This document shows, piece after piece, positions 6,128 through 11,581 of a DNA stretch of 64,000 nucleotides (the stretch's first letter is position 1; the number at the start of each line of letters is the position of its first letter). Under the pieces are notes generated by a model. It made no database searches, had not been told where the DNA came from, and was given only the letters and a program-made list of their open reading frames with translations. The position numbers and the translations under genes were made by a program. This DNA comes from Planctomycetota bacterium. Its GTDB lineage: Bacteria > Planctomycetota > Phycisphaerae > Sedimentisphaerales > Anaerohalosphaeraceae. The stretch lies in assembly GCA_029552545.1 (NCBI GenBank), contig JAKPDO010000013.1, forward strand, positions 124,001 through 188,000, read 5' to 3'.

Positions 6128-6436
6128 TTAGGAATTTTTCTTAGCCGGAGCCGGAGCAGAAAGTTTTTCCCGCATTAAACGGCCCATTTTAAATTTAACG
6201 CTGCGTTTGGGCGGCACCTGAACGCGTTCGAGTGTTTTCGGGTTTTGAGCGATTCTGGAAGACCGTGTTCGGGTTTCGAAGACCCCGAAGTCGCGGAATT
6301 CGAGCCGATTGTCACGAGCCAACTCATCAATCACTTCATCCAAAAATGTCTGGATTATTTTTTTGACAATCACTCGTTTGGCCTGTGTGGACTCTGAAAT
6401 CCGGTCAATCAGTTCTTTCTTCGTAATAGTTGCCAT
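6128..6436 (-). CDS. HU/IHF family DNA-binding protein
   Basis: MATITKKELIDRISE...DFGVFETRTRSSRIAQNPKTLERVQVPPKRSVKFKMG. Confidence 0.92.
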   Translation of the reverse strand: MATITKKELIDRISESTQAKRVIVKKIIQTFLDEVIDELARDNRLEFRDFGVFETRTRSSRIAQNPKTLERVQVPPKRSVKFKMGRLMREKLSAPAPAKKNS

Positions 6437-6704
6437 CGGCCATCCTCTTGATAGTTTTGAAATAAAGAAACTTTTTGGTATCCAATGCAGCTGGGACATT
6501 CGTTTAAGAACTGCAACTTACTATACAGAAACGACTTCGAAACGGCAAGTTTTTTTTTCCTAATTTTTCATAGGGATGAAAAAATGGATACAGGATGTGG
6601 AGGGTCTGCAATAAACAACCTGTTTCTTTTTTTCTTTTCTTCTACTTGACCGATTTTTTTATCAAGGCCATAATGGAAAATCTTTATAAACAGCGAATGG
6701 TTCG

Positions 6705-8297
6705 ATGGCTTTGGGTAAAAAAAGAGACAATCCATCTTGTGAGTCCACCGGTTTTTCCGTAGAGGGAATCTATCATTTCCTCGAGTGGCTGGTCACGGCA
6801 CTGGCGTCCACGCTGGTTTTTATTGTTTTTATTATGCAGGTGTACCGCATACCGACCGGCAGTATGGCGGATACGCTGAAGGGGGCGCATTTTCGGCTTC
6901 GCTGTGAGCAGTGCGGATATCGGTATGAGTATGATTTTTCGCCGCGCCAGTATGGGCTGGGCGAGAATGTAATCCCAAAGCGGGATTTGCCGATTTTGAA
7001 GGAATGCCGCTGCCCGAGCTGCGGGTATGCGTATCGGGTCTGGATGCGGGAAAAAGACCCCCGGTATTACCGACGGGTGTATAAGGGGGATCAGATTTTT
7101 GTTCTGAAGTGCATTTATCAGTTCCGGGAGCCGAACCGGTGGGATGTGGTGGTTTTTAAGAATCCGCTGGAGCCGCACATCAATTATATCAAACGGCTGG
7201 TCGGCAAGCCCGGAGAGAAGGTGGAAATCATCGACGGGGATATTTATATCAATGATCGAATTGTGCGGAAGCCGCCGTCGGTTCAGGAAGAGTTATGGAT
7301 GCCGATTTATGAGAATGATTACCAGCCGGCCCGTCCGGAGGAAGAGCGTTTCAATCGTCATTCGTGGAGACAGCCGTTTGAAAATCTCGGACCGAGCCGA
7401 TGGGACTTGGGGGGACCGGGGCGTCCGTTTTTTGCGCTGGAGGAAAAGGGGCAGCAGGTTCATCGGATTCAGTATAATCCCCAGATAGGGAATGATTTTC
7501 GGGCTGTGTACGCGTATGACCCGCCGGATTTTATTCCGAATATGCCGATTTGCAGCGATTTGATGATTCGCAGTCTTCCTGAAATCGATTCCGGCAGCGG
7601 AGTGGGGTATGAGCTGGGCAAATACGGCAGACGCTATCAGGGATGGCTTCACGGGGATGGACGAATGGAGATTCTTCGGATTGAGTCCGATGAAAAATCC
7701 ACCCTTCTAATGAGCGGACAGGCGGAGATGAAGGATTCTTTTCAGCTGGAGGAGTTTCGATTTTCTCACGTGGACCATCAATTGATTCTTCAGTACGGCC
7801 GGAGGCAGTTGGTTTATGACCTTGGGCGCGGGGCGGATGATGCCGGGACCTGGCGGCATATCCAGCCGGAGGCGGCTGTTCTCGGGTACGGAAGACTGCG
7901 GCTTCGGCATATTGGTTTATTCCGGGACATTTACTATATGAACACGGATGTGTCCAATCCGCGGAATCCGATTCTGCAGGGCGGGGCGGGCAATCCGATT
8001 GTTCTTGGAGAGGGTGAGTTTTTTGTGTGCGGGGACAACAGCCCGTACAGTCTGGATTCCCGCTGGTGGAATAAACCTGGACGGGGAAATCACGGGCGGA
8101 CGTTTACCCAGGGGGTTGTTCCGAGGGATTATTTTGTCGGGAAGGCATTTTTTGTTCACTGGCCGGGCGGGGATTCGATTCTTCCGGGCTTTATCCGTTT
8201 TGTTCCCTATGTGGAGGGAATGAAAATCATCTATGGAGGCAGCCGGGACTGGGATAAGGCGGAAGCAGTGCCGGCGGATACGGAGAGGAAGCTGTGA
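6705..8297 (+). CDS. Signal peptidase I (S26), large zinc-ribbon/insertion variant, paralog 1
   Basis: Ser box YRIPTGSMADTL; Lys box NYIKRLVGKPGEKVEI; GDNSPYSLDSRWW; four-Cys ribbon CEQCG...CPSCG between Ser and Lys boxes. Confidence 0.9.
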   Translation: MALGKKRDNPSCESTGFSVEGIYHFLEWLVTALASTLVFIVFIMQVYRIPTGSMADTLKGAHFRLRCEQCGYRYEYDFSPRQYGLGENVIPKRDLPILKECRCPSCGYAYRVWMREKDPRYYRRVYKGDQIFVLKCIYQFREPNRWDVVVFKNPLEPHINYIKRLVGKPGEKVEIIDGDIYINDRIVRKPPSVQEELWMPIYENDYQPARPEEERFNRHSWRQPFENLGPSRWDLGGPGRPFFALEEKGQQVHRIQYNPQIGNDFRAVYAYDPPDFIPNMPICSDLMIRSLPEIDSGSGVGYELGKYGRRYQGWLHGDGRMEILRIESDEKSTLLMSGQAEMKDSFQLEEFRFSHVDHQLILQYGRRQLVYDLGRGADDAGTWRHIQPEAAVLGYGRLRLRHIGLFRDIYYMNTDVSNPRNPILQGGAGNPIVLGEGEFFVCGDNSPYSLDSRWWNKPGRGNHGRTFTQGVVPRDYFVGKAFFVHWPGGDSILPGFIRFVPYVEGMKIIYGGSRDWDKAEAVPADTERKL

Positions 8298-9796
8298 GAT
8301 TAGCCAGTCCTTCCAACGGTTTCTCGCCTGATTATCCGCGTTTGCGCCGCAGCAAGACGGTGGAGTCGGCTGTGAACGCTCTGGACGGACTGCTGGTGGC
8401 GTTTATTTTGGCACTGGTGTTTCGGGCGTTTGCGGTGGAGGCGTTTCAGATTCCGACAGGCAGTATGGCGGAGACGCTGAATGGGGCGCATTGGCATTTG
8501 CGCTGCCTGCGCTGCGGCATTCCTTACGATTTTGGGGCGGATGCGGGCTGGTCCGGACAGCCGGTCTGTCCGAACTGCGGGTATGAACAGCCCAGCACGG
8601 CGATGGGGGTGCTGGCGAACGGGGACCGGATTTTTGTGAACAAATGCATTTATCAGTTCTCGGAGCCGAAGCGGTGGGATGTGGTTGTGTTCAAGAATCC
8701 GCCGAATCCGCAGGAAAATTACATCAAGCGTCTGGTCGGCCTGCCGGGAGAGTCCATTGAAATTGCAGACGGAGACCTTTATATCAACGGACAGATTGTC
8801 CGCAAGCCGCGGAAGATTCAGGAAGAGCTGTGGACATGTCTGTACCACAACGATTATCAGGCAGGGTTTGCTTCCGGTCGGTTTTCATCCCCTTCGGAGG
8901 ATTCCTCCCAATCCTGGCCGTTGGAGCCGCGGTTTGAGTCCGAAGGGCAGAGTGCATGGGAACTGAACTCGGAGGGAGGGACTGTTTTCGTTTTGCGGGA
9001 GGACGGTGCGGATGAGCATTCGATTCGTTTTGTGCCGAGACGTCCGGATGTGTTTCGGGTTTTTTATGCTTACAATGGGCCGGATGTGAGTTCAAACCGG
9101 CCGATTTGTTCGGATTTAATGATTCGATTCTGGGTTCAGCCGACGAGGGAACAGGGACAGGTCGGGGCTTTGCTGAGCAAAAACGGGGTTGGGTATGTCG
9201 GCCGATTCGACTTTCTGGGCCAGCTGATTTTTGAAAAAGTGACCTCAGACGGCCAGCGGACAGAACTGAGAAAACTGGCTTTTTTGCCGGACTGGTCCCG
9301 AAAGGGCTTGTGGTTTGAGTTTGCAAATGTGGACCGTCGTCTGGTTATTCGCTGTGGGGATTATCGGTTTTCTTATGATTTGAAGGAGGAGGATTTGGGG
9401 GAACGCAGCGGCCGCCGTCAGAATCCGGAGGTAAAGATTTTGGGGCAGGGGGGGATGCGGCTTTCGCATATCGGGGTGTATCGGGATATTTATTATCTTT
9501 CGTCGGATTCGCTTCGAGCGCGGCGCGGGCGGCCGTTTCAACTCGGGCCGGATGAATTTTTTGTTTGTGGGGATAATACGCCGAACAGTTATGACAGCCG
9601 GCAGTGGGCTACAGAGGGACTGGGCAACAACGGCAAGCGGTATCGGGAAGGAGTGGTGCCGCGTGATTTTATGATGGGCAAGGCCTTTTTTATCTATTGG
9701 TCGGATGCGTTTCGGCCTCGGGAGTATATGCTGCCGGTGATTGTGAATTTGGAGCGGCTGCGGGTCATTTATGGGGGTTCGGAGGAGATTTACTAA
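8294..9796 (+). CDS. Signal peptidase I (S26), large zinc-ribbon/insertion variant, paralog 2
   Basis: FQIPTGSMAETL; CLRCG...CPNCG; NYIKRLVGLPGESIEI; VCGDNTPNSYDSRQW; overlaps paralog 1 stop by 4 bp. Confidence 0.9.
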   Translation: MRLASPSNGFSPDYPRLRRSKTVESAVNALDGLLVAFILALVFRAFAVEAFQIPTGSMAETLNGAHWHLRCLRCGIPYDFGADAGWSGQPVCPNCGYEQPSTAMGVLANGDRIFVNKCIYQFSEPKRWDVVVFKNPPNPQENYIKRLVGLPGESIEIADGDLYINGQIVRKPRKIQEELWTCLYHNDYQAGFASGRFSSPSEDSSQSWPLEPRFESEGQSAWELNSEGGTVFVLREDGADEHSIRFVPRRPDVFRVFYAYNGPDVSSNRPICSDLMIRFWVQPTREQGQVGALLSKNGVGYVGRFDFLGQLIFEKVTSDGQRTELRKLAFLPDWSRKGLWFEFANVDRRLVIRCGDYRFSYDLKEEDLGERSGRRQNPEVKILGQGGMRLSHIGVYRDIYYLSSDSLRARRGRPFQLGPDEFFVCGDNTPNSYDSRQWATEGLGNNGKRYREGVVPRDFMMGKAFFIYWSDAFRPREYMLPVIVNLERLRVIYGGSEEIY

Positions 9797-9949: not shown

Positions 9950-11275
9950 TTACGCTGTTACCATCTGAGCGGCGACGAGTTCCTCGACTCGTTGGGTCGG
10001 GAAGTCCAATCCGCCGATGATGGTATAGACCCGAAGGGCCTCACGGCCGTCCTCGTAGATGCCGCGATGAATGGTGGCTTTACCGGTCAGGTCGGCCAGG
10101 ACGTCGAAGGCGAAGTTGATGTTGTCCTGCAGGTTGGGTGTATTGGCCATCATCCGCTTTCCGCCGACGACGATGCAGCCGGCAACCTTTGCTGTGCTCA
10201 GGTCGAAGCCGTTGCTCAAGAGCGTCTTTTCGAGATTCTGCTTGACGGCGCTGCTGAGGGCAAACCGGTCTTTGTATTTTTCGACGCGGGTCAGGCCCAT
10301 AATGGCGCAGCCGCCGGCCTTCAGGATGCTCTGGTAATCGACCGGGTCCAGCGTGGTGTAGGGGCTGCTGAGCGAGCTGAGCCGGTTGAAGATGTCGAAC
10401 ATGCCGGCCACGGTGTTGTTGACGCTGGGCCAGAATTCGCGAACCGTCTTGCCCGGGTACATCCGGCTGATTTTCTCATTGTCGATGATAATCAGCGGAG
10501 AGATTTGTCCTTTGGAGGCCATCTTACCCAGCTCGGCGGCCACCTGATAGGCGTTTTCAGCCACCTGCGGCGAGTTGGCTTCACCGTTGGTCGGCAGGGT
10601 CATAATAACGCCGACGTGCTTGTTGGGCTCGGTTTTCCCGATGGAATAGACATAATCCTTGGCGATGCTGACCAGCTCGGCTGCACTGCCGCCGCCGGTA
10701 CCGCCGCCGGCACCAAAGCAGACCATCACATGGTCCACTTCCGTTCCGAAGGTCTTTCGGGTCAGGTGCAGGATGTCCTGCCGCCATTGAGCGGCGGCCT
10801 GCTGCCCGCGGCCCATGTCTTTGCCGGCGCCTTTTTCGCCGATGTCCATCAGAAACTTTTGCGAGGGGGGCAGACCCAGCAAATCAAGGTCGTGGTAAGT
10901 GGTGTTGACGGCGATGGCTTTTTTGTAGCCGAGGTCATAGAAGGCCTTCACGAGCCGTCCGCCGCACTGGCCGCTTCCTATCCAGGCAAAACGGGTGGAG
11001 CCGACAAAGTTGTCCTTCACGCCCGTTTCACAGACGGTCTTGACCTCATAACGTTCCAGGTCCAGAACGGGGATTATCTCTTTTTTGGCCTTAGCGGGCT
11101 TGGGAGCGGATGCTTTGACCTGTACGGAGGCGGTTTTTTTCGCGACCGGTCTGGGCTTGACGGTTTTGGTCTTTTTGACAGGGGTTGTTTTTGCGGTCTT
11201 GCGCACGGAGGTTTTGGCGACTTTTTTTACGGATTTGCGGGCGCCTGTCTTGGAGGACTTCTTTTTGGCTGTCAT
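9950..11275 (-). CDS. Divergent bacterial tubulin/FtsZ-superfamily protein with Lys-rich H1-like N-terminal tail
   Basis: T1-like GSGQCGGRLV, AVNTTYHDL, T4 GAGGGTGGGSA, T6 IIIDNEKI, T7-like LDPVDYQSILKAGGCAIMGL; N-terminal ~65 aa rich in K/A/T/P. Confidence 0.85.
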   Translation of the reverse strand: MTAKKKSSKTGARKSVKKVAKTSVRKTAKTTPVKKTKTVKPRPVAKKTASVQVKASAPKPAKAKKEIIPVLDLERYEVKTVCETGVKDNFVGSTRFAWIGSGQCGGRLVKAFYDLGYKKAIAVNTTYHDLDLLGLPPSQKFLMDIGEKGAGKDMGRGQQAAAQWRQDILHLTRKTFGTEVDHVMVCFGAGGGTGGGSAAELVSIAKDYVYSIGKTEPNKHVGVIMTLPTNGEANSPQVAENAYQVAAELGKMASKGQISPLIIIDNEKISRMYPGKTVREFWPSVNNTVAGMFDIFNRLSSLSSPYTTLDPVDYQSILKAGGCAIMGLTRVEKYKDRFALSSAVKQNLEKTLLSNGFDLSTAKVAGCIVVGGKRMMANTPNLQDNINFAFDVLADLTGKATIHRGIYEDGREALRVYTIIGGLDFPTQRVEELVAAQMVTA

Positions 11276-11581
11276 TCTTTTTCTCCTATTATTATTTTTT
11301 CATCATTCCTAAAAGTACTTCTGCCGGTAACCCTGTTTTACCGTCTGTAGAGTCTGTGCTGCCTTTGCGTTGTAGTTCGGATTTTTGAGGGTTGGGATTA
11401 AGGAGATTGTTTGAAAAAAAGAAAATTGAAGGCATTTGCCTCGAGAAGGGGCTTAAAACGGGGATTTTAAAGATTCCCGCAAGAGGTCCGATAAGCGGGA
11501 GGAAATTTTATCGGGCCTTCGAGAGGGGAAAGCGGTTCTTGTGTGTTGCCGCGGGAGCGGGTATAAAAAGGTCCGGCAGAA

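Follow-up and report, generated by a model that had tools for sequence, protein, structure and literature searches.

The window (the whole analysed stretch of DNA, 64 kb) contains a gene of the tubulin/FtsZ superfamily, hereafter called copy A (Table 1). The open reading frame had been proposed as a tubulin homologue in a preceding sequence-only reading, and this assignment was confirmed by the Pfam family PF00091 (37.8 bits, with a cut-off of 33) and by the presence of the T1, T4 and T7 loops. All motifs quoted in that reading (the three loops, as given in Table 1, and IIIDNEKI) were found in copy A. Alignment of 22 homologues revealed that most residues of these loops are invariant, including both T7 aspartates (core alignment columns 246 and 249), which had been noted earlier as retained; in T7, Ser/Thr replaces the Asn of the FtsZ NxDxxD motif. 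The FtsA/ZipA-type C-terminal tail, also reported as missing, is indeed absent, the C-terminus lying only a few residues beyond the final helix. Within the genus, purifying selection on the core is very strong (dN/dS of 0.02-0.09). Judging from the conserved loops and this low ratio, copy A is predicted to be an active GTPase.

Table 1 Copy A and its sequence features, with positions given in window coordinates.
Feature	Position	Strand	Remarks
Tubulin-superfamily gene (copy A), 441 aa	9950..11275	-	ATG at 11275
AGGAG ribosome-binding site	11283..11287	-	7 nt 5' of the tail's ATG
N-terminal Lys/Ala/Thr/Ser-rich, histone H1-like tail, residues 1-68	11072..11275	-	net charge ~+23
Tubulin/FtsZ GTPase domain (PF00091), residues 98-273	10457..10984	-	
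T1 loop GSGQCGG, residues 100-106	10958..10978	-	
T4 loop GAGGGTGGGSA, residues 188-198	10682..10714	-	
T7 catalytic loop LDPVDYQSILKAGGCAIMGL, residues 309-328	10292..10351	-	includes Asp310 and Asp313
TubZ-like C-terminal domain (PF22453), residues 299-426	9998..10381	-	copy A below Pfam cut-off

The gene is surrounded by housekeeping genes, which in the window encode two signal peptidases and CYTH, HAD and SurE-like proteins, and in other genomes include rpe, accD and his genes (several of them named by eye). Such neighbours were found on all chromosomes examined and they are stable within lineages, the synteny being lineage-specific only (e.g. rpe - tubulin - accD). Neither a TubR-like gene nor any other constant partner was detected in the neighbourhoods examined, and in those seen there was no link to division or wall genes. 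The gene had no match in PADLOC and it is not located in a defence island; in the same search, a nearby HNH endonuclease matched many HNH models weakly.

Several other genes of these neighbourhoods were recorded. The two signal peptidase I (S26) genes of the window are adjacent (6705-9796, plus strand) and encode proteins of 530 and 500 aa, in both of which a long insert separates the S26 parts. An HU-family DNA-binding protein with a short basic end is encoded approximately 3.4 kb from the tubulin gene (6128-6499, minus strand). At six loci (among them L009:4780, L032:351 and L188:8263), a protein of approximately 219 aa (family F9; coiled-coil and GAF-like by eye) is encoded directly 5' of the tubulin.

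The basic N-terminal tail

Copy A begins with a tail of about 65 residues (64-68 aa), composed of approximately 30% Lys and almost devoid of acidic residues. It shows the features of histone H1-like tails (disordered, rich in Lys, Ala, Pro, Ser and Thr, with few acidic residues), and it is the only Lys-rich stretch of this kind in any reading frame of the window. Within the genus the tail evolves as protein-coding sequence (dN/dS of 0.2-0.5). The sequence-only reading had described this tail, and it proved to be both real and widespread, since most of the 27 chromosomal homologues carry tails that span 51-276 aa and contain 1-6% Asp+Glu. It is their composition and not their sequence that is conserved, and they often consist of short tandem repeats. 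Across the family, tail length ranges from 0 to 276 aa; the exceptions are two tail-less copies (L019 and L021), both in genomes that also carry a tailed copy, and a tail of 20 aa (L013). That the start had been misannotated, with the true one lying downstream and the tail missing from homologues, was rejected on the basis of the ribosome-binding site, the coding constraint of the tail and the tailed homologues.

The core of copy A is near neutral, unlike the acidic cores of FtsZ, TubZ and CetZ, and therefore offers the tail little to bind within the same protein. Its putative target is thus probably an outside polyanion, with DNA as the most plausible candidate and membrane, RNA and polyphosphate as the alternatives. 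Low-complexity basic tails bind any polyanion, and the tail of TubY binds membranes as well as DNA. Considering this general property, the variable length of the tail and a conservation limited to composition, the tail might bundle filaments or tie them to RNA, ribosomes or polyphosphate, with no role in the placement of DNA. Such a function is unlikely, as the near-neutral core leaves the tail little to bundle with and S/T-P-x-K motifs, which are characteristic of H1 tails, occur at roughly double the frequency found after shuffling (49 observed, 25.6 in shuffled tails), although unevenly across members. As for DNA, the favoured target, its non-specific binding by a flexible basic tail has been described for TubY in type III plasmid partition (PMC7762940).

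FtsZ and the distribution of the gene

Planctomycetes have been stated to lack FtsZ altogether (PMC6952346, PMC12283558), and Phycisphaerae were reported to divide without it, in a binary-fission-like process (PMC6952346). The absence of canonical FtsZ, mentioned for many Planctomycetota in the sequence-only reading, was borne out for the genome carrying copy A (99.97% complete): a TIGR00065 search found no canonical FtsZ in it, and the sole match was copy A itself (50.9 bits; the cut-off is 295). Among the 14 control genomes, 13 scored above this threshold. With FtsZ, copy A shares the GTPase fold and the T7 aspartates, but it has neither the FtsZ_C domain nor the conserved C-terminal peptide, and in the tree FtsZ forms a clade separate from the copy A family. 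The identity of copy A as an ordinary FtsZ, which the earlier reading had named as a finding that would overturn its proposal, was therefore rejected because of the score far below the cut-off and the distinct clade.

Searches of a genome collection revealed 27 close relatives that are 60-95% identical and come almost exclusively from Phycisphaerae or Sedimentisphaerales bins. Within the order, 29 of 162 genomes contain the gene (14 of the 67 near-complete ones), as do 15 of 297 genomes sampled from the class, and 393 genomes sampled from the phylum yielded hardly any further cases. Several relatives whose genomes are 98-99% complete have neither a copy A homologue nor FtsZ. One copy, with a tail, was found in an Omnitrophota-labelled genome (L024 / G735), in an order otherwise without an FtsZ-family match, which points to transfer. 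None of the other 42-43 genomes of that order gave such a match, and the order may lack FtsZ. In three other genomes, weak tubulin-superfamily matches were additionally recorded, at G653:C170:496-1152 (L076), G736:C130:12-659 (L103) and G460:C247:15913-16341 (L062).

The patchy distribution and the housekeeping neighbours indicate that copy A is not a general FtsZ substitute, and a class-wide replacement of FtsZ was rejected by the distribution. The notion of a stand-in for FtsZ in division is weakened in consequence. A division tubulin, whose basic tail would attach a ring to anionic lipids of the membrane or to polymers of the wall, would suit an FtsZ-less genome, a class dividing in the manner described above (PMC6952346) and a core under such strong selection. 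We regard it as decidedly unlikely, since nearly complete relatives do without both proteins, division and wall genes are not linked to the gene in the neighbourhoods seen and the tail is nearly devoid of hydrophobic residues.

Relationship to TubZ and phage tubulins

The sequence-only reading had considered the T1 loop to be closer to the CetZ/tubulin form. Its placement of copy A outside ordinary FtsZ, as a tubulin-superfamily GTPase, stood, whereas the kinship with CetZ/tubulin had to be corrected in favour of the TubZ and phage tubulin family. A profile search of the PDB gave weak and similar scores for CetZ, TubZ and FtsZ. In the profile-profile comparison, TubZ scored 221, FtsZ 104 and CetZ 80, the TubZ set being more diverse than the other two. 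The AlphaFold model of copy A (pLDDT 87.5, pTM 0.88; it replaced an earlier model with pLDDT 71) was compared with the PDB using Foldseek, and ranks 1-23 were all occupied by TubZ (E 7e-22 to 9e-19), with CetZ and FtsZ behind (E 1.5e-18 and weaker). The TubZ-like_C domain (PF22453) was detected in 11 of 16 members (best 6e-7), with the phage relative L105 above the Pfam cut-off. In the trees, the family forms one strongly supported clade, the position of which among TubZ, CetZ and FtsZ is not decided by the trees alone (AU test of alternative placements, including CetZ/tubulin, p 0.28-0.45; CetZ 0.45). The profile scores and the Foldseek ranking disfavour kinship with CetZ/tubulin, and, based on these and on the TubZ-like_C domain, the core of copy A is TubZ-like rather than CetZ/tubulin-like.

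With TubZ of the type III plasmid/phage partition systems (TubZRC) copy A shares the fold (best matches 2xka and 4ei7), the best profile match and the retained GTPase loops. It differs in being chromosomal, in its low identity to solved TubZ proteins (17-21%), in the lack of an operon with TubR and a tubC centromere (no small conserved partner gene adjoins it), and in having a basic tail at the N-terminus and no flexible C-terminal tail of the type contacting TubR. Tubulin-superfamily proteins already known from the phylum are FtsZl-1 / Tubulin_2 (PF13809), some of which have an N-terminal kinase domain (PMC2875224); copy A matches this family below its cut-off (20.6 versus 27) and carries neither kinase nor coiled-coil domains.

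Relatives of copy A were found on at least 106 IMG/VR viral contigs, with 35-54% identity over the whole core. These tubulins of uncultured Caudovirales (BFVD A0A6J5RW92; IMG/VR L105-L184) have an N-terminal LELEDYE-like motif in common with copy A, and A0A6J5RW92, a protein named FtsZ, was the best viral structure match (TM-score 0.85). Many of the viral genes lie beside terminase- and portal-like genes (portal by eye only), and one family encoded just 5' of them has a weak match to the terminase large subunit. Among annotated phages, a match was found in Bacillus phage G only (22-28% identity). PhuZ of nucleus-forming jumbo phages is likewise a phage tubulin, and one viral relative weakly matches PHROG 4733, but with respect to copy A PhuZ is a distant fold match (TM 0.5-0.6, 12-15% identity). 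The IMG/VR family (L105-L184) is large, and its PHROG matches comprise no more than a single family of unknown function (17961).

The chromosomal proteins constitute one clade (support 100/99), the sister of which is one viral group (96/93), and further viral groups branch outside both. The phage copies, located among phage genes, have short acidic N-termini (negative in 50 of 50 measured, median -12), whereas the chromosomal ones mostly have long basic tails (median +35.5); gain of the tail thus accompanies chromosomal life. This charge reversal, as well as the eroded copy B described below, had been missed by the sequence-only reading. Monophyly of all viral sequences costs 10.5 log units and is not rejected (AU test, p 0.19). 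A phage origin of the chromosomal tubulin is the simplest reading, favoured but not proven, with a chromosomal origin allowed by the latter value.

A captured phage tubulin could also act against phages, by co-assembling with or poisoning the tubulin of an invading phage and pinning it to DNA. The nearest relatives being phage tubulins, the patchy distribution with horizontal transfer and the availability of an eroded second copy as a poison subunit are consistent with this, but an anti-phage role seems quite improbable, as the low core dN/dS is unlike that of an arms-race gene, the gene has no PADLOC match and lies outside any defence island, and the neighbours are stable within lineages. Finally, an artefact (a tail created by a wrong start, or a prophage remnant, as might be suspected from relatives residing in phages) was refuted by the ribosome-binding site, the constraint on the tail, the tails of homologues and the housekeeping neighbours on every chromosome examined, and its probability is negligible.

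Second copies and a putative self-anchored filament

The genome encoding copy A contains a second tubulin gene, copy B (G000:C7:119466-120506, plus strand, 347 aa), which is present in 6 of 6 genomes of the genus and matches no Pfam family. The GTP-binding loops T1 (here GAGAAGC) and T4 (here LSEEESEKGG) have been lost, while T7 (FDSMDYLDV) keeps the aspartates. With a dN/dS of 0.16-0.23, indicative of purifying selection, copy B is a working gene. In several other genomes, a second copy is located directly 3' of copy A, in tandem. The trees point to at least two separate origins of second copies. Each origin includes some copies whose GTP loops are damaged, and the T7 aspartates are kept in all. 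Two second-copy tubulins (L019:7233-9026 and L028:7483-9183, both on the plus strand) are fused C-terminally to an AAA+ lid domain (PF25601, typical of sigma-54 activators, E 1e-15 to 2e-17).

Within a tubulin filament, each subunit uses its T7 to complete the GTPase of the one that follows. Since copy B has kept T7 and lost the GTP loops, it is expected to dock on copy A and not to be extended, and from this anatomy it may be a cap or a hydrolysis trigger of A filaments. In chloroplast division, ARC3-type FtsZ-like regulators, having a tubulin fold with eroded GTP loops, act on an active partner; their resemblance to copy B is an analogy and not a demonstrated kinship.

Most likely, a member of the phage tubulin family was captured onto the chromosomes of some Phycisphaerae (Sedimentisphaerales-like), where copy A would probably form GTP-dependent filaments like those of TubZ or PhuZ. 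TubZ moves DNA via the adaptor TubR. In copy A, the long, intrinsically basic tail would replace TubR as a built-in DNA anchor, binding DNA with no sequence preference and coating the filament in DNA contacts, through which filament and nucleoid would move or be organised together. Copy B would dock on the GTP face of copy A and trigger hydrolysis but accept no further GTP-bound subunit, and would thereby cap or regulate A filaments.

This overall reading, i.e. an accessory chromosomal TubZ-type filament with its own DNA anchor, including phage capture and the B cap, is put forward tentatively, with a confidence somewhat short of even. The tail-less copies and the lack of a constant partner gene speak against it, and RNA, polyphosphate or an anionic membrane would be equally possible targets of the basic tail. 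More speculative, and on balance rather doubtful, is the proposal that the captured tubulin, having gained a histone-like tail and thereby reversed its N-terminal charge, constitutes with copy B a self-anchoring cytoskeleton (A as the GTPase, B as the GTP-dead partner) which positions or segregates the nucleoid in these FtsZ-less bacteria. In view of the patchy distribution, any role in the nucleoid is dispensable in relatives.

The system is real and unusual: a phage- and TubZ-type chromosomal tubulin that bears a histone-like tail and is accompanied by an eroded partner, its role being accessory and not general. No paper describing a chromosomal tailed TubZ-type system was found in the open-access literature (subscription papers and preprints being outside the scope of the search). 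Some Planctomycetota, a phylum stated to be FtsZ-free, possess a chromosomal tubulin that is kin, in sequence and fold, to the DNA-moving tubulins of phages and plasmids, and the analysis exposes a large, mostly unannotated phage tubulin family. The eroded copy B provides a natural test case for the capping of tubulin filaments. If the proposed reading is true, a tubulin equipped with a DNA-binding-like tail would combine motor and adaptor in a single chain.
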